From assembly GCF_024298965.1 (NCBI RefSeq), contig NZ_CP085193.1, positions 7,378,001 through 7,442,000 of the forward strand: a stretch of 64,000 nt of DNA. The letters are read 5' to 3'. Source of the DNA: Streptomyces rapamycinicus NRRL 5491 (GTDB taxonomy: Bacteria; Actinomycetota; Actinomycetes; Streptomycetales; Streptomycetaceae). The translations under genes and the position numbers were made by a program. Below are positions 5,480-22,463 of the stretch, piece after piece; the first letter of the stretch is position 1, and every line of letters starts with the position of its first letter. The notes under the pieces were generated by a model. The model saw only the letters and a list, made by a program, of their open reading frames with translations. It did not search any database and was not told the DNA's origin.

Positions 5480-6745
5480 ATGGTGCGTCCTCAGGTACCC
5501 GAGGGGGTGCACCGGCAGCCTCGGCTGCGTCGGACCGGAGCCCTGCTCACCTCGCTGAGCGCGCTCATCGCGACCACCGTGGTGGCGGGTCCCGCCGTCG
5601 CGGCCGGCCCCGGCGGCCCCTGTGACCTGGAGCGCACCGACGCCCACCACTCGGAGGGCGTGGACAGCTGGAACTCCCGCTATCCGCGCCCGGCCCGCCG
5701 CCTGGACGCGGCGATGGTCTTCCTGTCCTTCCCGGACGCCCGGCCCCGGGTCACCCCCGCCCAACTGGCCGCCGACCACATCCCCGCGACCCCCAATTTC
5801 TTCAAACGGGCCTCCTACGGGAAGTTCGGTTTACGGGTGCATCCGCTGCGGCGCTGGATCACCATGCCCCAGCGCTCCACCGCGTACGCCATACAGCGCG
5901 ACTGGAACGCCCAGCGCCGCGCGGCCTATCTGAGCGACGCCATCGCGGCCGCCGATCCGCACCTCGACTTCGCCCGCTACGACCTCGTCTATCTGGTCGC
6001 CGACCCCGACGCCCCGGGTGTGGACGCCGACGCGACGAAAGTGGTCAACTTCGAAAAGCCACTGCGCGCGGACGGTGTCGAGCTGCGCCGCCTGGTCACC
6101 GTTTTCGAGCACCATCCGCCGGACCGCAATGTGCTGGCCCATGAAACCGGGCATGTCTTCGACCTGCCCGACCTCTACCACCGGCCGAAGGACACCGACG
6201 GCAACGCCGAATGGGACACCTACGTCGGCGACTGGGACCTGATGGGAAGCCAGTTCGGCATGGCACCCGATCCGTTCGGCTGGCACAAGTGGAAGCTCGG
6301 CTGGCTCGGCGCGCGCCAGGTGGCCTGCGACCGCGCCACCGGACCGCGCCGGTACACCCTCCGGCCCCTCGCCGCCCCCATGGCGCGCGGCCGGTCCGGC
6401 CCCGACACCCGCACCCGGCTGGTCGTGGTCCGCACCGGGCCCACCACCGCACTGGCCATCGAGGCGCGCGGCGGCAGCGGCAACGACGCGGGCACCTGCA
6501 CCGAGGGCGTGCTGGTCTACCGCGTCCGCAACGACAAGGCGTCGGGCGACGGCCCCGTCCAGGTGCTGGACGGCCACCCCGCCACCTCCGCCTGCTGGAA
6601 CGAGTCGGTCTACCCCGAACTCGCCGACGCCCCGCTCGGCGTCGGGGACACCATGTCGGTCAAGGACGACGCCGTACGGATCACGGTGGCGGGCCGCGCC
6701 GCCGACGGGGGCTGGACCGTCCGGGTCAACCGCAGGGCGCGCTGA
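5480..6745 (+). CDS. Secreted M6-family (immune inhibitor A-like) metalloprotease with a TTA codon
   Basis: 421 aa. An Arg-rich n-region, a hydrophobic core (LLTSLSALIATTVVAGPAVA) and an AAG cleavage region form a Sec signal peptide. The zinc motif HETGHVFDLPDLY carries HExxH followed by LPDLY, as in M6 peptidases. The flanking text (DWDLMGS, PFGWHKWKLGWL) is also typical. I chose ATG 5480 because GGGAGG sits just upstream; the longer frame from 5357 is promoter DNA. The leucine codon at 5831-5833 (in KFGLRV) is TTA, so translation probably depends on the bldA tRNA. The substrate is unknown. Confidence 0.85.
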   Translation: MVRPQVPEGVHRQPRLRRTGALLTSLSALIATTVVAGPAVAAGPGGPCDLERTDAHHSEGVDSWNSRYPRPARRLDAAMVFLSFPDARPRVTPAQLAADHIPATPNFFKRASYGKFGLRVHPLRRWITMPQRSTAYAIQRDWNAQRRAAYLSDAIAAADPHLDFARYDLVYLVADPDAPGVDADATKVVNFEKPLRADGVELRRLVTVFEHHPPDRNVLAHETGHVFDLPDLYHRPKDTDGNAEWDTYVGDWDLMGSQFGMAPDPFGWHKWKLGWLGARQVACDRATGPRRYTLRPLAAPMARGRSGPDTRTRLVVVRTGPTTALAIEARGGSGNDAGTCTEGVLVYRVRNDKASGDGPVQVLDGHPATSACWNESVYPELADAPLGVGDTMSVKDDAVRITVAGRAADGGWTVRVNRRAR

Positions 6746-6935
6746 TGACGGCCGATGACGGGGCCGCGACGGTCCGTCGGGCCGCTGCCGGACCCGTGCC
6801 GATGCCGCAGGTCGGGCCGGTGCCGGACCCCGGCCTAGGACCGGTGCTCGCTCCTCACCATTGATCAAGTCGGCTTCGAGGTGGCGCTTCGAGACTGTGG
6901 GCCCCTTTTCGACGTCGGGCGCCCGGGAGTTGAGA

Positions 6936-8578
6936 ATGCCGCGATACGCGAATCTGACCGAGGCCCTGAAGGAACGGGCCCTCTCGCGCCCCGACGGCAC
7001 GGCGCTCGCCCACCCCGCCGCCGATGGCACCGAACACCGCGTGTCCTACGCCGCCCTCGACGCCCGCGCCGACGCCGTGTCCGCCTGGCTGCGCGCCCGG
7101 GACGCCACCGGCCGCCGGGTGCTGCTCGCCATGGACCCCGGTCCGTGCGCGGCGGTGGCGCTGCTCGGCTGTCTGTACGCGGGGGCCGTCGCGGTGCCCG
7201 TGCCCGCGCCGTCCGCCTCCCGGACCGATGCCGAGCGCACCGCCTCGATCGTCCGGGACGCCGCCGTGGACCTCGTCCTCACCGAGACCGCCCACGCCAC
7301 CGAGACCTCGCGCGGCTCTCCCGAATCGGCCGCGCCGGTCTGACCTGCCTCGCCGTCGACGGACTCCGCCCCGACGCGTGCGCCGACACGCCCCGGCAAC
7401 CCCTCCGCACCCCCGCCGACAGCCTCGCGCTGCTCGCCTACGACTCCGGGCCCGCCACCGCCCCGCGCGGCGCCCTGCTGACGCATGGCAACCTTACGGC
7501 GGCCATGGCCGGGCTGCGGCGGACGCTCGGCACCGACCGCCGCTCCCGGATCGGCGGCTGGCTGCCCCGCCGCCACACCCCCGGGCTGATCGGGCAGGTG
7601 CTGCACCCCTTATGGCTCGGCGCCACCGCCGTGACACTTCCCGCGGAGCCGTACCGCACCGATCCGCTCGGCTGGCTGCGCGCCATCAGCCGCCACGGGA
7701 TCACCGAAACCCTCGCGCCCGACTTCCTCCACGCCCGCTGCGCCGCCCTCCTCGGCGACGAGCCACCGGCCGGGCTCGACCTCTCCCGCTGGCGGACCGC
7801 GCTGAACGCCGGGGAACCGGTCTCGGCCGGGACCATGGCCGCCTTCCCCCACCGCTGCGCCCCGCTGGGCCTGCGCCCGGGCACCCTGGTGGCCGGTTAC
7901 GTCCCGGCCGAGGGGACGCCGGTGCCGCTGGCCACGGGGCGCACACCGGTGCCGGGCGCGGACTTCGCCGTCGCGGACCCGCTGACCGGGCGCCGGCTGC
8001 CGGACGGGGCGCCCGGGGAGATCTGGGTGCGCGGCCCCGCCGTCGCCACCGGCCACTGGGGCGGTCCGCCGGACACCGCGCTGCTGTTCGCCGCCCGCGT
8101 CGCCGAGGGGCCCGGCGGCTTCCTGCGCACCGGCGATCTCGGCCTTACGGTCAACGGCCGGCTCCGGATGACCGGCCGGGTCCGTGACGCCCTCCTGGTG
8201 GACGGCCACACCCTGCACCCCCAGGACGTGGAGCGCGAACTGCTGGGCTGCGCGAAGGCGCTGGGATCGGCCCGGGTGTTCTGCGCCGGGCCCGGTGCGG
8301 GGGCGCTGGTGGTCGTGCAGGAGGTCGTCCGTACGGCTGGCGGGGCGCGCAGCGGGCTGCCCCGGCTGGCGGCCCGGATCCGCGCCCTGATCGCGGAGGA
8401 GTTCGGGGTCGAGACCGGCGCGCTGCTGCTGGTGCGCCCCGGCACCGTGCGCGGGGCGGGAACCGCCAAGGTACGGCGCGCCCTGCTGCGCGAGCGCTAT
8501 CTGCGGGGTGAAGTGCGCGCGCTGCACGCCGAGTTCGGGCCGGGGGCCGGTGAGCCCTGCCGGGGTGGTGCGGCGTGA
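6936..8578 (+). pseudogene. Frameshifted fatty-acyl-AMP ligase (FAAL)-like AMP-binding protein
   Basis: The N-terminal half (from ATG 6936, GGGAG upstream) runs in one frame to a stop at 7343. The C-terminal half continues in the -1 frame from about 7310 to 8578, with LARLSRIGRAGLTCLAVDGL joining naturally. Adding one base makes the span an exact multiple of three (547 aa), so a single-base deletion near 7300-7320 is likely. The order of motifs is that of FAALs, but several are worn: P-loop YDSGPATAPRG (usually YTSGSTSTPRG) and WLPRRHTPGLIG (usually WLPLYHDMGLIG). FLRTGDLG is intact. A TTA codon lies at 7610. No carrier-protein gene is adjacent. Loss of function is inferred. Confidence 0.75.
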
Positions 8579-8718
8579 ATAGGGGGCGCACGGTCGCGTG
8601 CGTGCTACGGGATGGGCGTTCGACGGGCGTATTTGCCCGCGAATCGATGGAATGGCCGAGAGGGCGGGGGAATAATCCCCATGCGGGGTGAGGCCGGGCG
8701 GGGAAAGCAGGGGGCGGC

Positions 8719-9324
8719 ATGGTCAGGGTGCTGATCGCGGAAGACATGCATATGTTGCGCAAGGCACTGGTCGCCCTGCTGGAACTCGAACCGGATATCG
8801 ACGTGGTCGCCGAATTCTCCGACGGCGCCGAAATCCTGCCGCGCGCCCGAGAGCTCCGCCCGGACGTCGCCGTCCTCGACATCGACCTGCCGGGCGTGGA
8901 CGGGCTCACCGCCGCCGCCGAATTGAGCACCGCCGTCCCCGAATGCCGCACCATGATGCTCACCAGCCTCGGCCGCCCCGGAAACCTGCGCCGGGCGCTG
9001 GCCGCCCATGTCTCCGGCTTTCTGCTGAAGGACAGCAGCCCGGAGAAGCTGAGCGACGCCATCCGCGCCGTCGCCAAGGGCGAGCGGGTGATCGATCCCC
9101 AGCTCGCGCTGGCCGCCCTGGACGACGGCCCACAGCCGCTGACCCCAAGGGAGCTCGAGGTCCTGCGGTTCGCCGCGAAGGGCGAGGACTCCGGGCAGAT
9201 CGCGGCCAAGCTGTTCCTGTCGGTGGGCACGGTGCGCAACTATCTGACGTCCGCCGTGACCAAGCTGGACGCCCGCAACCGGGTGGACGCCATCCGGATC
9301 GCCCGCGAGGCGGGCTGGCTCTAA
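8719..9324 (+). CDS. NarL/LuxR-family response regulator (DesR-like)
   Basis: 201 aa. An N-terminal receiver domain has the acidic pair ED (VLIAEDMHM), the phospho-acceptor Asp in VAVLDIDLPGVDG, and the conserved Lys in GFLLKDSS. The C-terminal LuxR helix-turn-helix reads LTPRELEVLRFAAKG...VGTVRNYLTSAVTKLDARNR. It is a transcriptional regulator activated by phosphorylation. The likely partner is the DesK-type kinase encoded convergently at 9435-10787. The intergenic gap is about 110 bp. Confidence 0.9.
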   Translation: MVRVLIAEDMHMLRKALVALLELEPDIDVVAEFSDGAEILPRARELRPDVAVLDIDLPGVDGLTAAAELSTAVPECRTMMLTSLGRPGNLRRALAAHVSGFLLKDSSPEKLSDAIRAVAKGERVIDPQLALAALDDGPQPLTPRELEVLRFAAKGEDSGQIAAKLFLSVGTVRNYLTSAVTKLDARNRVDAIRIAREAGWL

Positions 9325-9434
9325 GACGGCGTACGGCGTTCCCGCGTGCTGGGCAGGCCGTCAGGGGTTCCATTGCGCCGTCAGCGGCCAATACACCGGC
9401 AGGAGCGGTCGCGCCGTTGGGCCCCGTCACGCCG

Positions 9435-10787
9435 TCACGCCGTCACCGTCGGACCCGGGCCGTACTCCCGGCCGCTCCGCGGCGGCGCGTCCACGGACAC
9501 ATCCAGCTCCGCCCGTAACTCGAACCAGCCGTCCGACCGTACGCCCGCGCGTAGCCGCCCGTCGAGGTTCTCCACCCGCACCCGGAGGTTGCCGATGCCG
9601 CTGCCGCCGTCCGAGCTGTCGGCGCGCAGGATCGTGGACGGTCGGCCCACCCCGTCGTTGACGAGGGTCAGTGACACCCGGCGCCCGCTGCGCCGCGCCT
9701 CGACCGCGCAATGGTCGGCCTTGCTGTGGCGCAGCACATTGGTCAGCCCCTCGCGCAACACGCTCGCCAGCACCGTGTCCACCAGCTCCGGCAGCGGTCC
9801 GCAGTCGATCTCGGCCGTGGCGCTGATGCCCGCCGCGGCCAGCATCGAGCGGGCCGTGGCCGCCTCCGCCGACAGCGACATCTTGCGATAGCCGCTGGCC
9901 ACCGCCCGTACGTCGGCGAGGGCCTGACGGGAGGTCTGCAGGATCTCCGAGAGTTCCTGCTGGGCGCGGGAGTTCTGCCGTGGCACCAGCCGGTGCACCA
10001 GCTCGCATTTGAGGGTGATCGTGGACAGGCTGTAGCCCAGCAGATCGTGCACGTCCCGGGAGAACCGCAGCCGCTCCTGGGCGACCGCCAGCCGGGCCAG
10101 CTCGGCCCGGGACCGGGACACCTCGGCGACCAGCCCGGACAGCCGCGAGAGCCCGAAGACCACCAGCCCGGTCAGCGCGGTGGAGACCGAGGTGTACGCG
10201 ACCTGACCCCAGCCGAAGCCCACCTGGAACAGCAGCACGTCCGTGCACAGCAGGATGGCCGCGAACGCGGGCCACGCCAGCGCCGGGACCAGCACCAGCA
10301 GCGAGGAGCCGGCCAGGAAGCCCGGCATGCCCAGCCAGGCGTGCTTGAAGATGGCGAAGGGGGCGAAGGTCAGCACCGTCTGGAGCGCCAGCGTCCAGCG
10401 CCGCGCACCGCTGAGCCGGGGCGCGAGGCCGGGGAAGGAGTGCAGCATCTGGAGACAGAGCAGCACGGTCATCGGCAGCAGGGCAAGACCGAGCATCGCC
10501 GCGTCGACCGACCTGCCCGAACGATTGCCGTCGACCACGTAGGTGACGGCCACGGCGAAGTACCCCACCAGCACGAGGACCGTGATGACCACGGCCAGAC
10601 GCGGCGCCAGACCGTCCTGGTGGCGCGGTGGATGGTTCCCGGCATCGTCGGGCAAGAGGCTCCCCTGCACTCGTCCTCCGGATGGTCGGGCCGGATTGGG
10701 TGGCTTGCCCGAGAGTATCCGATCTTCACCTGGGGTGGAGAGAGCCTGTGGAAGGCTCATGGTGTACGCAGAGTTACCGGATATCAC
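9435..10787 (-). CDS. DesK-type membrane sensor histidine kinase
   Basis: About 450 aa. Five to six membrane segments occupy roughly residues 65-230 (e.g. AVVITVLVLVGYFAVAVTYVV). They are followed by a HisKA_3 dimerisation box with phospho-His in FSRDVHDLLGYSLS and a HATPase domain (REGLTNVLRHS, GSGIGNLRVRVENLDGRL). It probably phosphorylates the regulator at 8719-9324. The GTG at 10787 lies only 6 nt after the YcaO gene's stop, so it is probably the last gene of the precursor-YcaO-kinase operon; ATG 10760 is the alternative. Neither start has a clear ribosome binding site, which fits translational coupling. Confidence 0.85.
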   Translation of the reverse strand: MISGNSAYTMSLPQALSTPGEDRILSGKPPNPARPSGGRVQGSLLPDDAGNHPPRHQDGLAPRLAVVITVLVLVGYFAVAVTYVVDGNRSGRSVDAAMLGLALLPMTVLLCLQMLHSFPGLAPRLSGARRWTLALQTVLTFAPFAIFKHAWLGMPGFLAGSSLLVLVPALAWPAFAAILLCTDVLLFQVGFGWGQVAYTSVSTALTGLVVFGLSRLSGLVAEVSRSRAELARLAVAQERLRFSRDVHDLLGYSLSTITLKCELVHRLVPRQNSRAQQELSEILQTSRQALADVRAVASGYRKMSLSAEAATARSMLAAAGISATAEIDCGPLPELVDTVLASVLREGLTNVLRHSKADHCAVEARRSGRRVSLTLVNDGVGRPSTILRADSSDGGSGIGNLRVRVENLDGRLRAGVRSDGWFELRAELDVSVDAPPRSGREYGPGPTVTA

Positions 10788-10793
10788 GGGGGA

Positions 10794-13202
10794 TCACAGG
10801 AAAAACGGAATCGGGTTGAGATCCGCGTAGGGCGTGGGCCCCGGCAACCGGCCGAGTGCCACGGGGGCGTCGAAGAGCCGGCCGGGCGCGAACCGGGCCC
10901 AGTGCGGGCGCATTCCGGGCACCAGCACCTTGGCCACCGGCAGCCCCACATCCGGCCGGGTCTGGTCCAGTACCAGCAGTTCCATCCCGCGCCCGCGCAC
11001 CAACTCCCGCACGGCGGCCGGCGCACCGCCCTCCGCGGGCTCCGCGGCGCCGGATATCCCCGGGGGCGGTGGGGCGGCCGGATCAGGCGTCAGATACGGA
11101 TGGTCGGCGAGGGCCGCGGTACGGAACCAGCGCAGCGCCTCGGGCTCGGCGGCGCCGTAACCACCACCGTCGGCGCGGGCCTCGACCACCGCCGGAAGCA
11201 TCTGGTTCAGCTCGGCGAAGGCGTGGCACAGCGCGGTGTGCCGGTCGAAGTGGGCGCCGAAGCCGAAGGTGATGTCCTCGGCGGGCTTGTCGAGGCGCCG
11301 GGAGAGCGCGGCGACCACCGGGATGCCGAAGTCCGTGGTGAGGTCCAGGGCCCACACCTCGCGCCGCACGCCCCGGTGGGCGGCGCGCACTTCGGCCAGC
11401 CACGGGTCGTCGAAGGCCTCCAGGGCCACGGCGGGCTGCCGGGTGCGGTTGTACCACCACAGGGCGACCGCGTCCCGCTCCACGAGCTCCAGGAAGCCCC
11501 GTACGACGGCGTCGGCCAGGGTGGCGCCCGCCGCCGCGCCGTTGGAGCCGGCCCGGCAGCAGCGGTGGCCCGGGGGCTGCGGGGCGCCGTAGTACAGCAG
11601 CGCGGTGGGCAGCAGCCGGTGGCGCTCGGCGGTGAGCGACCACACCGGGGTCCAGTCCAGCTCCGCGCCCTCGTCGAACGGGTCCTGGACGCGGTGGCGC
11701 GCGGGGAGGGCGGGGTCCCGGAACTGGCGCGGGTCGAAGAGCTGGACGGTGTCCGGATGCACCGCGTCCTCCGGGCGCAGATCGCGGTAGCGGGCGCGCT
11801 GACGCGGCTCGTCCCCCTGGAAGTGGCCGCTGTAGTGCTCCAGGGCCTCGCACAGCGCGCTCGCCCGCGCCTGTTCGGCCGTGCGGCCCTTACCGTGGGC
11901 GGCGGCCCGCAGCCCGGCCCTTACGGCGTCCAGGCCGCTGTGGGGGCCCGCCCCGGCGTACGAAGGGTGGCGGGCGTGGAAGCAGTTGAGGACGGCGGGG
12001 CCGCGCGGATCGCGCCGGATCTCGGTGACCAGTCCGGTGACGGGGTCCACGAGATGTCCGTAGCGCTCCAAGATTCCGCGCGGGGAGGTGTCGGCCGCGG
12101 TCTCGGTCGGCGGCTCCTTTGGCGTCCTTGGCTCTCGTGGCTCCCGTGGTGAGGGCAGCGACAGGGGCGCCCGTATCCGGGCCGCGACCAGCGCCGGATC
12201 GCCGCAGCCGGCGCACTGCGGGCGTCGGGAGAGCGGATGGCGGTCCACGGTGGCGGTGAGACTGTCCAGGGTGCGCAGCTCCCGCTGGCCCGGGTGCCGG
12301 TACCCGGCCAGCCACTTGGCGGCCTCAAGGGCGGCGAGCTGGAGCGCGGCGGCGCGGCTCGCGGGCAGGGAGGCGGGCGGCCGCGGCACCGGTCCGCGGC
12401 GGCCGAGCCGGCGCTGGAGATACGCCTCGGCCTGCCGTCCGCGCCACAGCCGGTCGGCCAGACAGACCCAGCACGGATCGTCCGGGGCGCCGAGGAGCGG
12501 GCCCAGCCACGCCTGGGTGCCCACCGGTTTGACGGGCAGCCAGCGACGGCCGGCGGCCCGGTGCGCGGCGTCCACGGCGGCGAGCCGGGGATCGAGGTAG
12601 TCATCGCACACCACAAGGGTGAGTTCTGCGGCGTCATGTTGACGAATGGCGATTTGACATATCTCCCGCCGAGGACTATCGGCCCCCGAGGCCGTCGGAT
12701 CGCCTTCCGCCGCCTCCGCGTTCACGGACCCCGGGTCCGCGGTCCCGGCGTCCACCGTCCTCAGCCCTGCGACGCGCAGCGCCCGGACCACCTCGTCCGG
12801 GTCGGTCGAGCCGAGCACCAGCGGGGCCACGGCGGGGCGGGCGGACGCGGGCGTGGGGGCCGGGGCGGAGCCGCCCGTGCCCAGCCCGGCCAGCTCCCAG
12901 TACGCCTCCTCGGGGCTCCAGGCGTGCTCCCGCTCGGAGACCAGCCCGGCCGCGCGGAGACGGGCGATGACGCGCTCGGCCTGCCCGGCCGGGACCGCGC
13001 CGGGCGGGCCCGCGGCACGGCCGGGCGCGGCGGCCTCGGTGAGGATGTGGGCGAGGTCCCGCGACCCGTCGAGCAGTGGTGCCAGCGCGGCGATCGCCCG
13101 CCCGTGCAGCGCCGTGACCCCGTGCTCGGAGACGAGGTAGACGGCCTCGCCGGGCACCGGCTCGACCCGCAGATGTGGTGTGAAGCCCAGTTCGCCGGTC
13201 AT
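10794..13202 (-). CDS. Fused leader-binding / YcaO cyclodehydratase (TOMM-type RiPP enzyme)
   Basis: 802 aa. The N-terminal third is a peptide-clamp/E1-like domain (VYLVSEHGVTALHGRAIAAL...). A CWVC and a later CAGC motif form a likely zinc site, as in TOMM leader-binding proteins. The C-terminal half is a YcaO domain with ATP-binding motifs (EQARASALCEALEHYSG; VVRGFLELVERDAVALWWYNR). It ends NPIPFFL, a variant of the Pro-rich YcaO tail. Such fusions cyclodehydrate Cys/Ser/Thr to azolines on a precursor peptide; here the neighbouring peptide at 13210-13455 is the obvious substrate. I chose ATG 13202, 7 nt after the precursor stop; a longer frame from 13433 only overlaps the precursor. No SagB-type dehydrogenase is seen nearby. 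Confidence 0.9.
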   Translation of the reverse strand: MTGELGFTPHLRVEPVPGEAVYLVSEHGVTALHGRAIAALAPLLDGSRDLAHILTEAAAPGRAAGPPGAVPAGQAERVIARLRAAGLVSEREHAWSPEEAYWELAGLGTGGSAPAPTPASARPAVAPLVLGSTDPDEVVRALRVAGLRTVDAGTADPGSVNAEAAEGDPTASGADSPRREICQIAIRQHDAAELTLVVCDDYLDPRLAAVDAAHRAAGRRWLPVKPVGTQAWLGPLLGAPDDPCWVCLADRLWRGRQAEAYLQRRLGRRGPVPRPPASLPASRAAALQLAALEAAKWLAGYRHPGQRELRTLDSLTATVDRHPLSRRPQCAGCGDPALVAARIRAPLSLPSPREPREPRTPKEPPTETAADTSPRGILERYGHLVDPVTGLVTEIRRDPRGPAVLNCFHARHPSYAGAGPHSGLDAVRAGLRAAAHGKGRTAEQARASALCEALEHYSGHFQGDEPRQRARYRDLRPEDAVHPDTVQLFDPRQFRDPALPARHRVQDPFDEGAELDWTPVWSLTAERHRLLPTALLYYGAPQPPGHRCCRAGSNGAAAGATLADAVVRGFLELVERDAVALWWYNRTRQPAVALEAFDDPWLAEVRAAHRGVRREVWALDLTTDFGIPVVAALSRRLDKPAEDITFGFGAHFDRHTALCHAFAELNQMLPAVVEARADGGGYGAAEPEALRWFRTAALADHPYLTPDPAAPPPPGISGAAEPAEGGAPAAVRELVRGRGMELLVLDQTRPDVGLPVAKVLVPGMRPHWARFAPGRLFDAPVALGRLPGPTPYADLNPIPFFL

Positions 13203-13209
13203 TGCCCGG

Positions 13210-13455
13210 TCATTCGGCGCCGACGGTGCAGATGCAGATGCCGGGCGCGGGGATGGGCCAGGCGGCGTCGGAGAGGTCCTCGATGACCAGGTCGTCGTCC
13301 TCGGCGGGCGGACGAACGGCCTCGGCGGTCTTGGCGCGCTCGGTGATCTGGACGGCTCCGGCGACCCCGGCGACCCCGGCGACCTCGGTGTTCTTGGCGG
13401 GATGAGCCAGGGCGGCGGGGCTCGTGGACTCATGTGGGACGGGCGTATCGGTCAT
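13210..13455 (-). CDS. Candidate RiPP precursor peptide (81 aa)
   Basis: A small gene directly upstream of the YcaO gene and in the same direction, with GAGAG about 6 nt before its ATG. The peptide has a low-complexity region with VAG repeats (residues 25-33) and an acidic block (AEDDDLVIEDLSDA) of the kind bound by leader-recognition domains. It ends AWPIPAPGICICTVGAE, where C74, C76 and T77 are the cyclisable residues. The hydrophobic-acidic leader, the compact Cys-containing end and the coupling to YcaO support precursor status; the cleavage point is unknown. It resembles no precursor family I can name. The VAG repeats come from a GGCGACCCC-like DNA repeat at 13360-13390. Confidence 0.75.
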   Translation of the reverse strand: MTDTPVPHESTSPAALAHPAKNTEVAGVAGVAGAVQITERAKTAEAVRPPAEDDDLVIEDLSDAAWPIPAPGICICTVGAE

Positions 13456-13608
13456 CGCGGACTCTCTTGTCGCCAGGGGTGTGAATTTGTCATGGTGCGA
13501 GGCTCTGGAACTCATATCGAGCTCGGTACTCCGGCACTGGCCGCGCAGGCCGCCCACAAGCGAGGCTCTTAGATGCCTCGGTGGCAGGGCCGCGCGGCCA
13601 GGAGGCAC

Positions 13609-13626
13609 TTGACGGACCGTTGACGG
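13609..13626 (+). promoter_or_regulatory. Direct heptamer repeat TTGACGG with 11-bp period upstream of the SARP gene
   Basis: TTGACGG occurs at 13609-13615 and again at 13620-13626, exactly 11 bp apart, just upstream of the SARP start. Same-face heptamer repeats with 11-bp period are the known layout of SARP binding sites, although the sequence could instead be -35-like. A TCGAGCT heptamer lies once near 13518. The 13456-13638 region is the only divergent promoter space of the locus and must serve both the precursor operon and the SARP gene. The site call is inference. Confidence 0.35.
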
Positions 13627-13638
13627 AGGTACAGGACC

Positions 13639-14463
13639 ATGGACATCAAGGTGTTGGGGCCGCTGAGCGTCGAGGCGTGCGGTCAGTCGATCGTGCCCAG
13701 CGCGGGCAAGCCGCGCCAGATCCTTGCACTGCTTTCCGTCTACGCCAACCAGATGCTCCCGGTGCCCACTCTTATGGAGGAAATCTGGGGCACACAGATG
13801 CCGCGCAGCGCACTCACCACTTTGCAGACCTACATCCTGCAGCTGCGCCGCAGGCTGGCCGCTGCCTATGGCCCACAGGCCCCGCAGGCTTCCAAGGACG
13901 TGCTCGCCACGCGGTACGGCGGATATGTGCTGGAGGCCCAGCCGGGCGCGGTGGACATCCATGAGTACGACCGGCTGGTGGCCGCGGGGCGGGACGCGCT
14001 GGACGCCGGGGACGATGTCCAGGCGTCCCTGCTGCTGCGCGAGGCGCTGGCCGTCTGGCGCGGCCCCGCGCTGGTGGATGTGAAGGTCGGGCCGGTCCTG
14101 GAGATCGAGCTGGCCCGTCTGGAGGAGAGCCGGCTCGGCGTCCTGGAGCGCCGTATCGAGGCCGATCTGCGGCTGGGCCGCCATGCCGAGCTGCTCACGG
14201 AGCTCACCGAGCTGACCGCCCGTCATCCGCTGCACGAGGGGCTGCACGCCCAGTGCATGGCCGCGCTCTACCGGGCGGGCCGCCCCTGGCAGGCGCTGGA
14301 GGTCTACCAGGGGCTGCGCGCCAGACTGGTGGAGGACCTCGGGCTGGAGCCGTCGCCGCGGCTGCAGAAGCTCCAGCAGGCAGTGCTCGCCTCCGACCCG
14401 GCGCTCGATCTGGACCTGCACGGCCACTGGCGCCGCCCGGTGCTCGATCTGTTCGCCGCATAG
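13639..14463 (+). CDS. SARP-family transcriptional activator
   Basis: 274 aa. An N-terminal OmpR-like winged helix (MDIKVLGPLSVEACGQ...PRQILALLSVYANQMLPVPTLMEEIWG) is followed by a bacterial transcriptional activation domain with TPR-like helices. The late segments LHEGLHAQCMAALYRAGRPWQALEVYQGLR and LVEDLGLEPSPRLQKL are typical of SARPs. These are pathway-specific activators of natural-product clusters, so its position divergent from the precursor-YcaO operon points to control of this locus. It lacks the NB-ARC region of large AfsR-type proteins. Confidence 0.9.
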   Translation: MDIKVLGPLSVEACGQSIVPSAGKPRQILALLSVYANQMLPVPTLMEEIWGTQMPRSALTTLQTYILQLRRRLAAAYGPQAPQASKDVLATRYGGYVLEAQPGAVDIHEYDRLVAAGRDALDAGDDVQASLLLREALAVWRGPALVDVKVGPVLEIELARLEESRLGVLERRIEADLRLGRHAELLTELTELTARHPLHEGLHAQCMAALYRAGRPWQALEVYQGLRARLVEDLGLEPSPRLQKLQQAVLASDPALDLDLHGHWRRPVLDLFAA

Positions 14464-14519
14464 CCCCCGGCCCCCGGCCACCGGCCTCCCCAGCCGCGGC
14501 CTCGGCCCCCGCCCACAGT

Positions 14520-14606
14520 CGACAGCCCCCGCAGAGCAGAGCCCCGAGGTCCCCGAGGTCCCCGACATCCCCGAGGTCCTCGACATCCCCGACACCGCCC
14601 CGTCCT
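14520..14606. repeat. Short-period degenerate tandem repeat (CCCCGAGGT/CCCCGACAT) downstream of the SARP gene
   Basis: In the 368-bp gap between the SARP and monooxygenase genes, about nine-base units of the type ccccgaggt / ccccgacat follow one another several times, with decay at the edges. The reading frames across it are not gene-like. It resembles the in-frame repeats inside several neighbouring genes and looks like a slippage product. Confidence 0.6.
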
Positions 14607-14696
14607 CGTCCGGAGTCCCGTAGGTCCCGTACCAGCCGTCCCCGTCCGGCGAACCATCCCCCCAAATACGCCCGGCGCCGCCCTTCAGCCGGGCCT

Positions 14697-14746
14697 GCTA
14701 CGGCTCCGCTGCCCGATCCCCCCGCGCGGGCAAGCGGAGCCGTAGC
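14697..14746 (+). terminator. Strong hairpin, probable SARP terminator
   Basis: The arm GCTACGGCTCCGCT (14697-14710), extended by GCCCG, pairs with CGGGC-A-AGCGGAGCCGTAGC (14727-14746) with one bulged A. That makes a stem of about 19 bp. It stands 234 bp past the SARP stop and 85 bp before the next start, so the monooxygenase probably has its own promoter in the remaining gap. Confidence 0.7.
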
Positions 14747-14831
14747 GCGTCCAGGGGCTGTCACAGGCGCCCGATGCCCGATGCCCATGGCCTGAAGCCC
14801 TGGACCCTGAGCCCGACCAGCAGGAGGCGCG

Positions 14832-16067
14832 ATGATGCGCGAGATCGACACCGATGTGTGCGTGGTCGGGGGAGGCCCGGCCGGTCTGGTGCTGGCGCTG
14901 CTGATGCTGCGGTCAGGCGCTCGGGTGACCGTGGTGGAGTGCGCCCGCGCGCATCAGCGCGTGGTCCGCGGCGAAATACTCCAGCCCGGCGCGATGGAGT
15001 TGTTGGACGCGCTCGACGTGCTCGCCGGCGCCCGCGCCCGCGGCGCCCATGAGCACCACCGGTTTCTGGTGATCGAGGGCGAGCGGGTGCTGCTGGAGGC
15101 CGACTACCGGCTGCTTCCTGCCCCGTACGACCACCTGCTGAGCGTGGTGCGCCCCCATCTGCTGGACGAGCTCCTCGCCCACTGCCGCCGCTCGCCCGGC
15201 TTCCGCTATCTGCCCGGACGGCGGGCCGGGGCGCTGCTGCGGCGGGAGGGCCGGATCGCCGGGGTCATCGCCGAAGGCTCGCCGGGCCGCTGTGCCGTAC
15301 GGGCCCGGGTCGTGGTCGGCGCGGACGGCCGGTTCTCGAGGGTCCGGCGGCTGGCGGGCATCGGGGCGGGCCGCGCCGACGCGTTCGCCCAGGATGTGCT
15401 GTGGTGCACCCTCATCACGCCCCCGGAAGAGCCGCCGGTCCGCGATGTGCGGGTGTACCGCACCGGCGGCGGCCCGGTGCTGGTCTACGGCTCCTGGCCG
15501 AACCGGATCCAGATCGGCTGGACCCTGCCGCACCGGCGCTACGGCCATATCGCCGCCCTCGGCCTCGACCACGTCAAGGAGCGGCTGGCGCGTGCCGTGC
15601 CGCGGTACGCCACGCTGATCCGCGATCAGATCCGCACCCCCGCCGACCTCGGTGTGCTCGATGTCTTCTCCGCACGCGCCGAGAACTGGGTGGCCGACGG
15701 GCTGGTGCTGATCGGCGACGCCGCCCACACCCACAGCCCGATCGGCGCCCAGGGCATCAACCTCGCGGTGCAGGACGCGGTGGTGCTGCATCCCCTGCTG
15801 GCCCGTGCCCTGGCCGAGGGCGACACCAGCGCCGAGCGGCTGGCGGAGTTCGAGCGGCGGCGTGGGCCCGATATCGCGGCGGTGATGCGGATGCAGACCC
15901 TGCAGAGCCGGGCGATCCTCTCGCAGGGCGCGTTCACCACCCGGGTGCGCCCCCGTCTCGCGCGGGCGCTGCGTCGTACGCCGCTCTATCGCAAGATCCT
16001 CCAGCGCATGGCCTACGGCAACCCCTCGATCCGTATCGCCGACGCGGGGGTGTGCGGCCGCATATGA
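14832..16067 (+). CDS. FAD-dependent monooxygenase (class A flavoprotein hydroxylase)
   Basis: 411 aa. The N-terminal GGGPAGLVLALLML dinucleotide-binding motif, the central GADGRFSRVRR (DG motif) and GDAAHTHSPIGAQGINLAVQDA (GD motif) are all intact, which defines a PHBH-type hydroxylase using FAD and NAD(P)H. The start at 14832 follows CAGGAGG; ATG 14835 is equivalent. Family members hydroxylate aromatic or polyketide-like substrates, so its target in a RiPP-like locus is open. It opens the plus-strand run leading to the SDR and glycosyltransferase. Confidence 0.9.
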   Translation: MMREIDTDVCVVGGGPAGLVLALLMLRSGARVTVVECARAHQRVVRGEILQPGAMELLDALDVLAGARARGAHEHHRFLVIEGERVLLEADYRLLPAPYDHLLSVVRPHLLDELLAHCRRSPGFRYLPGRRAGALLRREGRIAGVIAEGSPGRCAVRARVVVGADGRFSRVRRLAGIGAGRADAFAQDVLWCTLITPPEEPPVRDVRVYRTGGGPVLVYGSWPNRIQIGWTLPHRRYGHIAALGLDHVKERLARAVPRYATLIRDQIRTPADLGVLDVFSARAENWVADGLVLIGDAAHTHSPIGAQGINLAVQDAVVLHPLLARALAEGDTSAERLAEFERRRGPDIAAVMRMQTLQSRAILSQGAFTTRVRPRLARALRRTPLYRKILQRMAYGNPSIRIADAGVCGRI

Positions 16068-16160
16068 CACCCTCGAGCGCGATGGCTGGAAATCAGCTGT
16101 GCACCGGCTTCTCGCCACTCCGGCGTTGGTGCGATGCCCCCTACGGCCTAGGTTGAGGCC

Positions 16161-17111
16161 ATGCACACTGTCGTGATCCTGGCGCTGGACCAGGTCATCG
16201 CCTTCGATCTGGCCACCCCGATCGAGGTGTTCACCCGCACCCGGCTGCCCGACGGCCGTGAGCCCTATCGGGTCCGGGTCTGCGCCCCCGCCCCCGCCGT
16301 CGACGCCGGGGTGTTCGCCCTCCAGGCTCCGTACGGGATCGAGGCGCTCGCCGAGGCCGACACCATCGTGGTGCCCGGCCGCGGCGACCCCCTGCTCCCG
16401 ATCCCCGACGAGGTGGTCGAGGCGCTGCGGGACGCGGCCGGGCGGGGCACCCGTATCGCCTCGATCTGCTCCGGGGCCTTCATCCTCGCCGCCACCGGGC
16501 TGCTCGACGGACTCCGCGCCACCACGCACTGGCTCGGCGGCGCGCTGCTCGCCGAGCTCCATCCGAAGATCCAGGTCGACCCGGATGTGCTCTATGTGGA
16601 CAACGGCCAGTTCCTCACCTCGGCGGGCGCCGCGGCCGGGCTCGACCTGTGTCTGCACCTCATCCGGCGCGACCATGGCTCCGCCGTGGCCGCCGACGCC
16701 GCCCGGCTGTCCGTGATGCCCCTGGAACGGGAGGGCGGACAGGCCCAGTTCATCGTCCACGACCAGCCGCCCGTGCCGCGCGGCTCGCTGTTCGAACCCC
16801 TGCTGCGGTGGATGGAGGACAACGCCGGACGGGACCTCACCCTCAACGAGATCGCCGCCCACGTCGGCATGAGCACCCGCACCCTCAACCGCCGCTTCCG
16901 TGAGCACACCGGGACCACCCCGCTGCAGTGGCTGCACCGCGCCCGGATCCGCCAGGCGCAGTATCTGCTGGAGGCCACCACCCACCCCGTCGAACGCATC
17001 GCCTCCCAGGTGGGGTTCGGCTCGCCGACCTCCTTCCGGGACCGTTTCAAGCGCGTCGTCGGCACCAGCCCGCACAGCTATCGCTCCGCCTTCCGGCGAA
17101 ACGCCGGATAG
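16161..17111 (+). CDS. GlxA-type transcriptional regulator (DJ-1/PfpI domain plus AraC HTH)
   Basis: 316 aa. The first ~170 residues form a class I glutamine amidotransferase-like domain with the nucleophile-elbow sequence ICSGAFILAATGLLDG. The C-terminus is an AraC DNA-binding domain with two HTH motifs (LNEIAAHVGMSTRTLNRRFREHTG and ERIASQVGFGSPTSFRDRFKRVVG). AdpA has the same layout, but this is a separate paralogue. It sits between the monooxygenase and SDR genes and may be a local regulator. Its ligand is unknown. Confidence 0.88.
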   Translation: MHTVVILALDQVIAFDLATPIEVFTRTRLPDGREPYRVRVCAPAPAVDAGVFALQAPYGIEALAEADTIVVPGRGDPLLPIPDEVVEALRDAAGRGTRIASICSGAFILAATGLLDGLRATTHWLGGALLAELHPKIQVDPDVLYVDNGQFLTSAGAAAGLDLCLHLIRRDHGSAVAADAARLSVMPLEREGGQAQFIVHDQPPVPRGSLFEPLLRWMEDNAGRDLTLNEIAAHVGMSTRTLNRRFREHTGTTPLQWLHRARIRQAQYLLEATTHPVERIASQVGFGSPTSFRDRFKRVVGTSPHSYRSAFRRNAG

Positions 17112-17214
17112 CCGCCGAGCGAGCCCCCGCACAGGGTCGGGCGCGGGTCGAGGCAGGCTCGAGTCACGGCGGCGACCATGGCCTTCTCAGTGGGAACGAC
17201 CGCGAGGAGCGCCC

Positions 17215-18042
17215 ATGTTGGACCTCGGTCTGGAGGGACGCACGGTCCTGGTCACCGGGGCCACCGGGGCCATCGGCAGCGCCGCCGCGCGCGCCTTCGC
17301 GGAGCAGGGTGCCCGGGTCGCGCTCGCCTTCCGGCACCGCCACGAGATCGCCGAGGCGCTGGCCGTCGAGCTGTCAGGACCGGACCGGGGCAGGGCCTTC
17401 GCCGTGCCGTACGCCCTGGACGACGCCGCGTCGCCGCGCTGGGTCGTGGCCGCCGTGGAGGAGCACTGGGGCGGGCTGGACGTGCTGGTGGCGGCCGCCC
17501 GGCGAAGGGGCGCGCGACGTGAGCCGCACGCCCGGTTCGAGGACGTCCCGGAGGAGCACTGGCGGCCGCTCGTCGCCGACGCGTTCGCGCCCGCGATCCG
17601 CACCGTCCAGTGGGCCGTCGCAGGGATGCGCAAGCGCGGCTGGGGCCGGATCGCGCTGGTGGCCCCGCCGCACGCGCCGGAGGGCGCCCCGGGTGGGGAG
17701 TTCCACGAGGTGGCGCGGGCCGGGCTGCGAGGTCTGGTCCGCGGACTGGCGGGCGAGGTGGGCGGGGAGGGAGTGCTGATCAACGCCGTGTGCCCCGGGC
17801 CCACCCCGCCCGACCGGCCACCGACCACGCCGGTCCGGCCACCGACCCCGCCCGACTGGCCACCGACCAGGCTCGACCGGCCGCCCACCGCTACCGCGGG
17901 TCCCACCGCGTCCGAGGGCCCCACGACCCCCGAGGGCCCCACGACCACCCCTCAGGACGTCGCCCGCGCTCTCGTCTTCCTGTGCTCGGCGGCGAACGGC
18001 GCGATCACCGGCGAGACGCTGACGCTCGCGGGGCGCCGCTGA
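17215..18042 (+). CDS. SDR-fold protein with a replaced catalytic triad and a Pro-rich insertion
   Basis: 275 aa. The cofactor motif TGATGAIGSAAARAF is intact and the fold runs to the typical end (DVARALVFLCSAANGAITGETLTLAG). The catalytic residues are not. The usual Ser position reads LVAPP, and the YxxxK pair appears as H-E-V-A-R in GGEFHEVARAGL. The NNAG motif is also lost. A ~45-residue Pro/Thr repeat (about 17805-17950) fills the loop after CPGPT, where substrate usually binds. It may be inactive as an oxidoreductase, or use the fold differently. GAGGAG precedes ATG 17215. Confidence 0.8.
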   Translation: MLDLGLEGRTVLVTGATGAIGSAAARAFAEQGARVALAFRHRHEIAEALAVELSGPDRGRAFAVPYALDDAASPRWVVAAVEEHWGGLDVLVAAARRRGARREPHARFEDVPEEHWRPLVADAFAPAIRTVQWAVAGMRKRGWGRIALVAPPHAPEGAPGGEFHEVARAGLRGLVRGLAGEVGGEGVLINAVCPGPTPPDRPPTTPVRPPTPPDWPPTRLDRPPTATAGPTASEGPTTPEGPTTTPQDVARALVFLCSAANGAITGETLTLAGRR

Positions 18043-18133
18043 ACCCGCCGGGGGTCGCGCGGAGTCGGCCCGGTGTCATGTCCATCGGCCGGACGGGTCG
18101 GTCCGGTCGGCTCGACCTCTGCGGGAGGTGACC

Positions 18134-19438
18134 GTGCGCGTCCTGTTCACGACCTGGGCCTCGGGTGCCCATCTCGTCCCCATGGTGCCGTTGGCCCGCG
18201 CCCTGCTCGGGGCCGGGCATCAAGTGCGGGTCGCGGTGCCGTCCGAATGCGCGGCGGCTGTCGCCCGCACCGGCCTGGTGCCGGTGCAGATCGGCGCCCT
18301 GCCCCTGGCGGTGGTCAGAGGGCCGGACGTGGCGCGCCGCCCGCGCGGCATCTGGCCCACGGAGTGGCCGGTGCGGCCCGCCGCGCTCACCCCGGAGCAG
18401 CACGGCGTGCTGCGCGCGTGCGGCGACCGGCAGGTGCGGATCGCCGAGGCGATGGCCCAGGGCCTGGTGGCCTTCGCCCGCTGCTGGCAGCCGGAGCTGG
18501 TGGTGCACGACGCGGGCGCGTACGCGGGCACGGTGGCCGCGGGAGCGCTGGGGGTGCCCGCGGTCGGCCAGCTGTGGGGGAGCGCGGCCGTCCTGCGGCT
18601 GGACCGGCAGCGGCTCGAAGGCCCGCCGCTGCCCGGCTACGCCCGGCTGATGAGGCGTTACGGCGCCGACCCGGCGCGCGAGCCCGACCTGTGGCTCGAC
18701 CCCTGCCCGCCGAGTCTCGCGCTGCCCTCGCGGGCGCGGCGGCTGCCGGTGCGCTTCGTGCCGTACGACGGGACGTCGCCGTACGAGGCCCGCCGCGCCG
18801 GGGCGCACCCCGCGCGCCATGAACACCCCGGGCGCCCCGGGCGCCATGAACACCTCGGGCACTCCGGGCACTCCGGGCGCCACACCGCCGCGTCGAACGG
18901 GCGGCGTGGGCCGGGCGGCGGCCCCAGGCGCTCCGGGCCGGTGCGGGTGTGCGCGGCATGGGATGACGCCGGTGGCCCGCCGGACGCCGTACGGGCCGCG
19001 CTGTGGGCCGCCGAGGCGCGGGGTGTGGAGGTCGTCCGGGTCGGAAGCGCCGCCGAGGGGCGGCCGCCCGCCGGGCCGCTGCACCGGGTGCTGCCGGGCT
19101 GCCGGGTGCTGGTCCACCAGGGCGGGGGCACGGCGGTGCTGGCCGCCGCCATGGCCGGGGTGCCGCAGCTGGTCGTCGCGCCCCGTCTGGAGCACCAGCT
19201 GAACGGGGCGCGGCTGGCCCGGGCGGGCGCCGGGATGTATCTGCCCGCCGATGCCCTCGACGCGGCCCGGCCCGGGGCGCGGGCGGCGGGCGCCCGGCTG
19301 GCCCTGGATCTGTTCGCGTTGCTGGAGCAGCCCTCGTACGCCGCGGCGGCGCATGCCCTGCGCCGGGAGGCGCTCGCGATGCCCGGCCCGGACAAGGCGG
19401 TGCGGGCGGTCACCCGGCTCGCGGGCCCGGCGGTGTGA
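18134..19438 (+). CDS. GT-B glycosyltransferase of the GT1/MGT (natural-product) type
   Basis: 434 aa. The start VRVLFTTWASGAHLVPMVPLARALLGAGHQV is the acceptor-domain signature of antibiotic and macrolide glycosyltransferases. The C-terminal donor site reads VLVHQGGGTAVLAAAMAGVPQLVVAPRLEHQLNGARL (HxGxGT region). I chose GTG 18134 because GGAGG ends 5 nt before it; GTG 18128 overlaps that site. Between the domains is a His/Gly/Arg-rich repeat (about 18810-18900) built from 'ggcgccatgaacac/ctcgggcac' units. It probably adds a sugar to a small molecule. No sugar-biosynthesis genes are nearby, so the donor may be a common NDP-sugar. Confidence 0.88.
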   Translation: MRVLFTTWASGAHLVPMVPLARALLGAGHQVRVAVPSECAAAVARTGLVPVQIGALPLAVVRGPDVARRPRGIWPTEWPVRPAALTPEQHGVLRACGDRQVRIAEAMAQGLVAFARCWQPELVVHDAGAYAGTVAAGALGVPAVGQLWGSAAVLRLDRQRLEGPPLPGYARLMRRYGADPAREPDLWLDPCPPSLALPSRARRLPVRFVPYDGTSPYEARRAGAHPARHEHPGRPGRHEHLGHSGHSGRHTAASNGRRGPGGGPRRSGPVRVCAAWDDAGGPPDAVRAALWAAEARGVEVVRVGSAAEGRPPAGPLHRVLPGCRVLVHQGGGTAVLAAAMAGVPQLVVAPRLEHQLNGARLARAGAGMYLPADALDAARPGARAAGARLALDLFALLEQPSYAAAAHALRREALAMPGPDKAVRAVTRLAGPAV

Positions 19439-19508: not shown

Positions 19509-19516
19509 ACTGTCTG

Positions 19517-19590
19517 TGCGCCGCCAGGGACTCGAACCCCGGACCCGCTGATTAAGAGTCAGCTGCTCTAACCAACTGAGCTAGCGGCGC
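19517..19590 (-). tRNA. tRNA-Lys (anticodon CUU)
   Basis: Reading the minus strand gives acceptor GCGCCGC pairing with GCGGCGC, D-arm GCTCAGTTGGTTAGAGC and anticodon stem-loop CTGA-CTCTTAA-TCAG with anticodon CTT. The T-arm is GGGTTCGAGTCCC and the discriminator is A. All four arms pair. CCA is not encoded. A terminator follows immediately. Confidence 0.95.
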
Positions 19591-21077: not shown

Positions 21078-22463
21078 TTACGGCCGCCATGCCACCCGGT
21101 GCTCCGACAGGTGCGCCAGCACCGCGTGATTGGCCTCCCAGCCGTCCGGGAACTTCACCGTGACGCCCAGCTGCACCGGCTCCGTGGAGGGATGCTCGTC
21201 CAGCAGTTCGGCCACCCCCGCCCGGCACACCACCACACACGCCTGCCGGTGCCGCGACGCCAGCACGCACAGCCGCCCCGTCTCCAGGTGGAAGGCCGTG
21301 GCGTCCGGCCGCCCCGACAGCGGGTGGAGCACGACCGTGACGTCGAACTCACGCCCTTGGAGGCGATTGGCGGTGTCGACGGTGACGCCGGAGACCCCGA
21401 GCCCCGCCAGCGCCGCCCGGACCGCCGCCGCCTGGTCCCGGTGCGCCGTGCCCACCGCGATCCGGTCCGCGGCGACCGGTTGCGGCTCGTCGGACCGCTC
21501 GCTGACCGCCACCGCGCCCCGGTCCAGCAGCCGCCGCACCACCTGGGCCACGGCCGCCACCGCCTCCGGGTCGGTGCGCGGGGTGCGCCGGGCGGGCAGC
21601 TCCAGCAGCCCCCAGCCGGACTCGGCGGCCTCGTCCAGCACCCGGTCGGGCCCCGAGCCGTCGGAGGCCACCCCGAAGCTCAGCCGCCGCTCGCCGTGGC
21701 CGGTGCCGCTGCGGAAGGGCGTGTACGGGTAGAACGCGTGCGAGACCAGCGGCGCGGCCGTGGCCGGGAGCCGCCAGGAGACCGGCAGCCGGTGCTGCGG
21801 AAGCCGCGGATTGTGGGCGAGCAGGGTGGTGACCGCGCTCGCCGACGGGTCGTACGAAAGCCCCGCCCACTGGTCGGCGCCCACCACGCTGAACGGGTCC
21901 AGCTGCCCGGGGTCGCCCACGAACAGCGCCCGCTCGAACAGCCCGGCGACCGCAAGCAGCGCGTCGGAGCGCATCTGGTACGCCTCGTCCACGATCGCGT
22001 GCCGCCACGGCTCGACGTTTTTGACGTGCGCCCACTTCGCGGCCGTGGAGACCACGATGTCGAGCCCGGCGAGGTCGGCGATCTTCGCGGAGGCGCGGAC
22101 CGACTCATGACCGTCGAGCACCGGGTCGTACGGATGCGGATCGCTGCTGTGCAGCCGCCCCACCGGGAGGTCGGGGTCCGCCGTGGCCAGCCGGTCCACC
22201 AGGTCGTCCACCTGGGCGTTGGTCTGCGCGACCACCATCAGCGGCCGTCCGGCGGCGGCCAGCTCCCGCGCCGCCCGCACCACCAGCGTCGACTTGCCCG
22301 CACCGGGCGGGGAGTCCACGACGACGCCGCGGTCCGCTCCGTGCAGCGTGTCGTGCAGGATCGCCTCGGTGGCGCGCGCCGCGGCGGCCGACGGGTCGAA
22401 CGGCTCGTCCGCGCGGGCACGGCCCGGGTGGGCAGCGGCGGCGGCCGGGTCCGCGCCGATCAC
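21078..22463 (-). CDS. SF1 (DNA2/NAM7-like) helicase/ATPase, third gene of a nuclease-helicase operon
   Basis: 461 aa. Walker A is VVDSPPGAGKSTLVVRAA and Walker B is AIVDEAYQM (DExx form). Later superfamily 1 motifs are FVGDPGQLDP, VSWRLPAT, TANRLQGREFDVTVVLHPLSG and ASRHRQACVVV. It should translocate on or unwind nucleic acid using ATP. GTG 22463 overlaps the stop of the upstream gene as GTGA, so the two are translationally coupled. With the upstream nuclease it forms a compact DNA-processing operon. The length is short for a replicative helicase and leaves little room for accessory domains. Confidence 0.85.
   Translation of the reverse strand: MIGADPAAAAAHPGRARADEPFDPSAAAARATEAILHDTLHGADRGVVVDSPPGAGKSTLVVRAARELAAAGRPLMVVAQTNAQVDDLVDRLATADPDLPVGRLHSSDPHPYDPVLDGHESVRASAKIADLAGLDIVVSTAAKWAHVKNVEPWRHAIVDEAYQMRSDALLAVAGLFERALFVGDPGQLDPFSVVGADQWAGLSYDPSASAVTTLLAHNPRLPQHRLPVSWRLPATAAPLVSHAFYPYTPFRSGTGHGERRLSFGVASDGSGPDRVLDEAAESGWGLLELPARRTPRTDPEAVAAVAQVVRRLLDRGAVAVSERSDEPQPVAADRIAVGTAHRDQAAAVRAALAGLGVSGVTVDTANRLQGREFDVTVVLHPLSGRPDATAFHLETGRLCVLASRHRQACVVVCRAGVAELLDEHPSTEPVQLGVTVKFPDGWEANHAVLAHLSEHRVAWRP

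Follow-up and report, generated by a model that had tools for sequence, protein, structure and literature searches.

Within a 64,000-nucleotide stretch of the 12.47 Mb chromosome of Streptomyces rapamycinicus NRRL 5491 (contig NZ_CP085193.1, positions 7,378,001 to 7,442,000; hereafter the window), the gene for the precursor of a ribosomally synthesised and post-translationally modified peptide (RiPP) belongs to a unit of genes that travels together in Streptomyces and other actinobacteria. The unit comprises the precursor, a fused TruD/LynD-like cyclodehydratase, a histidine kinase and a response regulator, usually with a divergent SARP (Streptomyces antibiotic regulatory protein) activator, and its standing as a linked module is well supported, to the point of being nearly certain. 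The core of the precursor seems to co-diverge with the membrane sensor part of the kinase and not with its kinase domain. Our best reading is a circuit that would work like a peptide-pheromone system; for the whole scheme, including the ownership of the regulatory DNA sites and the SARP as output, we estimate a probability of roughly 0.5.

The precursor gene (13210-13455, minus strand) encodes 81 residues including cysteines, and lies 7 nt ahead of the cyclodehydratase gene (10794-13202, minus strand; 802 residues), an enzyme in which leader-binding, E1-like and YcaO parts are fused. A longer YcaO reading frame listed from 13433 overlaps the precursor, and homology starts only at 13202. The gene for a 450-residue membrane histidine kinase of the HisKA_3 type with a hydrophobic N-terminal sensor part (9435-10787, minus strand) follows 6 nt on. 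This order of Cys-containing peptide, YcaO fusion and sensor kinase is the one described in an original prediction made from the letters of this DNA. The stretch covered by that prediction begins at 8719, which is the start of a 201-residue NarL/LuxR response regulator (8719-9324, plus strand) that it overlooked, as it did a broken AMP-ligase gene to the left. The 274-residue SARP (13639-14463, plus strand) shows 92-99.6% identity across 11 loci of the window's clade.

Two samples of loci were compared. The first was centred on YcaO and comprised 80 loci kept of at least 507 YcaO relatives, several of them cut by contig ends, with a gene counted as present at a bit score above 60. The kinase was found in all 80, the response regulator in 77 and the SARP in 63, of which 57 were divergent and within 1.3 kb. 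Clusters of open reading frames (ORFs) for type II polyketide synthase (PKS) and related genes were also present, namely the ketosynthase (KS, 25 loci), a PF04199 cyclase (21), the acyl carrier protein (ACP, 20), a thioesterase (17) and the AMP-ligase (31); by tblastn, KS was found in 29/80 loci, two of them weak matches (30 and 33%). The second sample was drawn from kinase matches in 199 Streptomyces genomes and was not chosen by YcaO. Outside the window's clade these gave 59 places at 197 bits or above, tandem matches being counted once, and 55 were used (of the four left out, three were on short contigs or at an edge and one was already among the loci collected). YcaO was present in 39 of the 55, the response regulator in 53, the SARP in 37, KS in 13, the AMP-ligase in 18 and a SagB-type dehydrogenase in 15 (six weak). 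Twenty control loci around paralogous kinases held no YcaO, SARP or KS, with a response regulator in 16.

YcaO distances correlated with those of the kinase (0.73, n=73), response regulator (0.71, n=72), SARP (0.62, n=52) and KS (0.70, n=26), and SARP distances with those of KS (0.86, n=21), with 0/2000 permutations in each case. A quick tree of 105 kinase rows has at least nine changes in YcaO presence and 12 in KS presence, indicating that both come and go. Precursor, maturase, kinase and response regulator are linked across genomes, a feature of pheromone-type systems. Three genes to the right of the SARP, encoding an FAD-dependent monooxygenase (FMO), a DJ-1/PfpI-AraC regulator and a glycosyltransferase (GT), behaved differently: FMO, AraC and GT were matched in 15, 9 and 18 of the 80 loci, mostly in the window's own clade, and in 5, 2 and 2 of the 55, all weakly. 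The check that the original prediction had proposed, to see which flanking genes travel with the precursor and YcaO, thus favours the kinase and regulator nearly always and the SARP in part, but not FMO, GT or AraC; its coupled precursor-YcaO-kinase RiPP locus is borne out, while its assignment of all these genes to one tailoring pathway is not. Tandem kinase matches lie head to tail in some module loci (L119, L125, L163), and at L061:13024-17917 there are two neighbouring ORFs, each containing either a second HisKA_3 stretch or part of a second kinase.

Including the window's own, 42 proteins match the precursor; the named relatives are from Streptomyces, several of them from the S. violaceusniger group. 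All have DDLVIE.L and ICICT in common and differ in the length of the middle part; ICICT is invariant in the alignment, and the cyclisable residues Cys74, Cys76 and Thr77 are invariant across the 42 sequences. The conserved leader motif DDLVIEDL (residues 54-61; 13273-13296, minus strand) is presumed to be the recognition sequence of the cyclodehydratase. It is followed by the predicted core WPIPAPGICICTVGAE (residues 66-81; 13213-13260, minus strand), in which the three cyclisable residues are the candidate azoline positions. Over 76 dereplicated loci, an LVIEDL-type motif followed by Cys was found upstream of the YcaO gene in 55 and failed in 21, against a shuffle mean of 0.1 (maximum 1) and 0 on the reverse complement. 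Among these 55 cores, 14 have CICW, three CICT, eight another CxC, five CW, five at least two Cys and 20 a single Cys. Gly, Cys, Ser and Thr account for 5/18 of the last residues of the window's precursor, short of the 45-65% given in PMC4603692 as typical of cores of thiazole/oxazole-modified microcins (TOMMs), where it is a usual and not a required feature. Synonymous divergence of the precursor (0.03-0.08) is lower than that of most neighbours in the same pairs, perhaps owing to an overlapping second frame or a regulatory sequence. Its median ratio of nonsynonymous to synonymous divergence (dN/dS) of 2.1 was not taken as a sign of positive selection, given the unusually low dS and the variable length of the gene's middle part.

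The YcaO fusion scored above cut-off with TIGR03882 (E 1e-35) and TIGR03604 (239.8 bits), and matched PF02624 at 312 bits. The nearest solved structures are those of TruD, LynD and MusD. A profile of seven family members gave near full-length matches to TruD (4bs9, E 2.6e-181) and LynD (4v1t, E 8.3e-181), so that the enzyme has the layout of a cyanobactin heterocyclase; the best stretch with MusD covered the second two thirds, and CxxC...CxxC pairs are invariant in the seven aligned sequences. On the strength of its family, this enzyme, the single YcaO match in the genome, would form azolines on Cys74, Cys76 and perhaps Thr77. The SagB dehydrogenase reported missing from the locus is indeed not in the window, and the genome's one SagB-like match (70.2 bits, below the cut-off of 78.4) lies 6.9 Mb away. 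This does not extend to the module at large: a SagB-type ORF cluster was found in 27/80 related loci (three members checked as TIGR03605) and some SagB match in 45/80, making its absence a feature of the window's clade. In ten further loci examined the SagB match covers about the first 180-220 of 518 residues, without the oxidase part. A stand-alone gene of about 220 residues lies between YcaO and the kinase at L061:12284-12946, and also in L054, L056, L059, L064 and L065. Neither Pfam nor NCBIfam gave a match for it, but it is not unrelated to everything else, since direct comparison matches it to the N-terminal part of SagB only (35-43% in five loci compared), again without the oxidase part; perhaps it is what remains of a SagB, retained for a non-catalytic role.

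Judged by its cyclodehydratase and precursor sequences the locus belongs with the TOMM loci, with an atypical core composition. It resembles linear azol(in)e loci in having a fused C-D (E1-like plus YcaO) cyclodehydratase beside a small precursor and a SagB-type dehydrogenase in many of its kin, and differs from them in being linked to a kinase, a response regulator and a SARP. The features examined place it outside the cyanobactin and NHLP groups. Its enzyme family matches the cyanobactin heterocyclases TruD, LynD and MusD, and in two kin the SagB protein matches the ThcOx model, but the precursor is of another kind. Cyanobactin loci are defined by PatA/PatG-type subtilisin proteases, and none was found among the nine ORFs scanned (5357-19438), to which the search was confined, the protease at 5357-6745 being of the M6 type, a different family. 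The distant kin L081 and L099 reach 52 bits with the TIGR04351 model of NHLP-type TOMM precursors, below its cut-off of 65, and the window precursor has no match to that leader model. Goadsporin is described in PMC4603692 as a Streptomyces TOMM that promotes secondary metabolism and morphogenesis at low concentration, from clusters with a fused cyclodehydratase, a B protein and dehydratases; neither a dehydratase nor a B protein was found among the window locus ORFs scanned. The terms 'two-component', 'kinase' and 'polyketide' are absent from the main text of that article. The original prediction could match the layout to no known compound, and no characterised product turned up here.

Of the 55 loci in which a precursor was found, 52 had YcaO, kinase and regulator as well, and co-divergence was measured in these. 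Core distances correlated (Pearson) with those of the sensor at 0.56, YcaO at 0.49, the regulator at 0.28 and the kinase domain at 0.26. The partial correlation of core with sensor was 0.52 given the kinase domain and 0.38 given YcaO (0/2000 permutations each), and that of core with kinase domain given the sensor was -0.004. Spearman coefficients were 0.35 for the sensor, 0.04 for the kinase domain and 0.08 for the regulator, and 0.16, 0.19 and 0.27 for the leader-binding, E1 and catalytic parts of YcaO; the leader-binding region is nearly as variable as the sensor (mean distance 0.57 vs 0.63). Over 1168 distant pairs (regulator distance >0.25) the sensor gave 0.30, the kinase domain -0.07 and the YcaO catalytic domain 0.19. 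Only the sensor (0/2000) and the YcaO catalytic domain (20/2000) stood out in a six-way regression on the core, and the sensor was the top predictor in 439/500 random halves. The core-sensor correlation held with two other core definitions (0.39, 0.34) and within kinase clusters (0.60, n=23; 0.49, n=24). The leader correlated about equally with all five partners (0.21-0.34), the sensor (0.25) not being the best. The kinases of the 16 loci lacking YcaO had drifted further in the sensor, with sensor minus kinase identity at -0.21 vs -0.10 in the 39 with YcaO (p 7e-4). By statistics that ignore the tree, core and sensor change in step to a greater degree than other parts of the locus do, as would be expected of a pheromone and its receptor.

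The region between the SARP and precursor genes carries a recurrent element. Counting 7-mers over the 700 bp before YcaO in the 76 loci, CAGTGCC was present in 47 against 11.1 expected; several 7-mers ranked above it, some perhaps from SARP coding sequence inside the 700-bp stretch. The longer form CAGTGCC-N4-TC was found in 35/76 loci at 50 sites (shuffle mean 0.73 loci, maximum 3 in 200), a density 118 times that found elsewhere in these loci, where 1.51 Mb holds 12 sites. Sixteen inverted CAGTGCC pairs occur within 200 bp, all 75-78 bp apart and 12 of them at 77. The distance between the SARP-side site and the start of the SARP is 61-125 bp (14/24 at 93-100), and this site was found in 24/50 loci with an adjacent SARP vs 2/26 without (p 3e-4), whereas the precursor-side site was found in 26/50 and 10/26 (p 0.33). 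As the latter also occurs where no SARP is adjacent, the response regulator is the more probable binder. In the window CAGTGCC lies at 13533-13539 (minus strand), 99 bp from the SARP start; its site, CAGTGCCGGAGTACC, has TA where most sites have TC. A direct repeat before the SARP, TTGACGG-N4-TTGACGG, was set aside: it is conserved in the clade but overlaps the ribosome-binding site, and among 55 dereplicated SARP upstream regions a TTGAC pair at this spacing occurs in the window's row only.

Across the window's clade most of the PKS core has been lost, while the circuit is kept. L049 and L053 retain KS genes, C-terminal cyclase fragments remain in L034 and L036, and L035 has a weak partial KS match (34.5% over 220 residues). 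KS, ACP, cyclase, thioesterase and SagB queries from relatives had no match in the window at E 1e-3, and the set of KS, chain-length factor and ACP that marks a type II PKS cluster was not found there. The window's AMP-ligase gene (6861-8563, plus strand) is split over two frames that meet near 7313; the match is uninterrupted in L026, L029, L031, L033 (93-100%) and L035 (57%), falls in two frames or has a large gap in L027, L034 and L036, and is missing from L030 and L032. A tRNA-Pro predicted at 7856-7942 (minus strand) inside this remnant has no Rfam report and is probably false. The median dN/dS to the window was 0.05 for the SARP, the lowest of 11 genes measured, 0.12 for the response regulator, 0.22 for the kinase, 0.22 for FMO, 0.25 for GT and 0.30 for YcaO. 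That the circuit was kept while pathway genes around it were lost speaks for a role reaching beyond those genes; since FMO and GT are also constrained, a small remaining pathway with these two is possible.

In the scheme that we consider best, the cyclodehydratase, being of the TruD/LynD type, would bind the precursor through the LVIEDL leader motif and turn the core Cys, and possibly Thr, into azolines, which, with no dehydrogenase in the locus, would stay unoxidised. The matured peptide would serve, alone or as one part, as ligand of the adjacent membrane kinase, which would phosphorylate the NarL-type response regulator. The regulator would then act through CAGTGCC-N4-TC at two mirrored promoters, that of the precursor operon, as feedback, and that of the SARP, and the SARP would activate biosynthetic genes, in many relatives those of a nearby type II PKS cluster. 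The window's clade would have lost the PKS core and retained the circuit. Three results speak for such a signal rather than for a decorated end product: the recurrent DNA element, the co-divergence of the core, but not the leader, with the sensor in preference to the kinase domain, and the greater sensor drift of kinases with no YcaO nearby. Agr is a peptide-pheromone two-component system, and the module is like it in that a modified-peptide gene is linked to a membrane kinase and a response regulator, with core and sensor co-varying; it differs in its modification enzyme, its NarL-type regulator, its SARP output and its setting in actinobacterial biosynthetic clusters.

Several observations weigh against this scheme. 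The permutations leave shared ancestry in, and the correlations are modest. YcaO tracks the core too (partial correlation given the sensor 0.21, 0/2000), as does the regulator given the kinase domain (0.14, p 0.0005). Within the kinase cluster of n=24 the sensor value is barely above those of YcaO parts (0.46, 0.45), and with a three-row cluster removed the sensor gives 0.31 vs 0.29 for the YcaO catalytic domain. Kinases without YcaO are also more diverged overall, which confounds the comparison of their sensors, and when loci were matched on kinase identity (6 vs 12) the values were 0.45 vs 0.36. These YcaO-less loci make up 16 of the 55 in the kinase-centred sample, and SARP kin (E <= 1e-60) occur in 120/199 genomes, most of their places outside the examined set, so that the SARP group is wider than the module. 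The 20 control loci have a higher background of CAGTGCC-N4-TC (13 sites in 398 kb), and measured by it the enrichment falls to about 29-fold; 29/76 loci lack even the 7-mer, and the window retains the SARP-side site only, with its second half changed. Neither an exporter nor a leader protease was identified in the scan, which covered the window ORFs and a subset of conserved neighbour representatives. Binding of the peptide to the kinase, and its activity there, we infer from sequence.

The main rival is a linear azol(in)e-containing peptide that is sensed by its own kinase, the peptide being an antimicrobial or other end product and the two-component system serving only self-protection or dosage. 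Product-sensing kinases are known for RiPPs, and such an arrangement would account equally well for the co-divergence of core and sensor. We nevertheless think it unlikely, given that no immunity or export gene was identified among the genes scanned, that a SARP usually, and PKS genes often, lie beside the module, and that the cores are poor in Cys, Ser and Thr, 20/55 having a single Cys. Less likely again is that the peptide is an end product whose azoline is hydroxylated by FMO and glycosylated by GT, with SARP, kinase and regulator merely regulating. The genes are contiguous, FMO and GT are each matched in 10/11 clade loci (GT being cut by a contig end in L028 and partial in L034), and both have the dN/dS values given above. 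Such decoration would leave the co-divergence of core and sensor unexplained, however, and FMO, AraC and GT fail to travel with the module; in the clade relative L035 both FMO and AraC are missing beside the module, and the sole GT-like match there (27%) overlaps an adjacent helicase gene. GT and FMO families also occur in some KS-bearing relatives, and here may be leftovers of the PKS pathway.

Co-divergence might instead be a by-product of block recombination that moves the precursor and YcaO along with the beginning of the kinase gene, with the peptide unlinked to the kinase. The genes lie side by side, and the catalytic domain of YcaO, which lies next to the sensor in loci without SagB, tracks the core too; but the leader-binding and E1-like parts lie nearer the precursor and track the core less, and the leader, which shares a gene with the core, has no preference for the sensor, making this explanation improbable. 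Lowest of all we rate a hybrid in which the peptide is joined to a type II polyketide via the AMP-ligase and thioesterase. The recurrence of KS, AMP-ligase and thioesterase among the 80 loci and the close agreement of SARP and KS distances are in its favour, against which 42/55 kinase-centred loci have no KS match in the stretch fetched, a PKS locus without YcaO exists (L166), and most of the window's clade lost KS and kept the peptide.

The SARP, FMO and GT genes run divergently from the precursor operon, as the original prediction had them. FMO (FAD_binding_3; 14832-16067, plus strand) is mainly a clade-specific neighbour, and the EryCIII-like GT (18128-19438, plus strand) shares its Pfam families with genes in some KS-bearing relatives. 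Between them, the gene at 16161-17111 (plus strand), another clade-specific neighbour, had been called a short-chain dehydrogenase/reductase; matches above cut-off to PF12833 and PF01965 rule this out and make it a DJ-1/PfpI plus AraC-type regulator, with 332.9 bits to the FtrA model (cut-off 425). Elsewhere in the window, three closely packed genes at 21078-25563 (minus strand) encode an SF1-helicase-like ATPase and two proteins without a Pfam match, near a tRNA-Lys gene (19516-19590). The first two recur in clade relatives, and of the three only the ATPase gave PADLOC matches, weak ones to MkoC, MkoA and GajB. A TPR-like regulator of the NsdA family, scoring above the cut-off of its model, lies at 27349-28926 (minus strand), G+C content drops from about 70-77% to 67-72% right of 34 kb (34000-64000), and a GH48 protein with CBM2 is encoded at 51199-54135.

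In the open subset of PubMed Central no paper was recognised as describing such a circuit, subscription literature being outside this scope; in the portions of PMC12402327 seen, the mentions of YcaO, kinase and regulator are unrelated, and PMC4210621 and PMC11648730 were, on the portions seen, likewise unrelated. We tentatively extend the scheme, at clearly less than even odds, to an actinobacterial family of azoline-type RiPPs acting as specific pheromones, each core read by its own kinase, which through the NarL regulator and mirrored promoters would switch on both the peptide's own synthesis and a SARP for aromatic-polyketide and other antibiotic genes. Predicted peptide-kinase partners and DNA sites are available in dozens of strains. 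In laboratory culture many antibiotic clusters of Streptomyces stay silent, and among natural inducers small molecules of the butyrolactone type are the best known; if the reading is true, a modified peptide with its kinase and SARP would be another kind of inducer, a use would have been found for a group of YcaO loci for which no known product turned up, and the matching peptide could open silent clusters.

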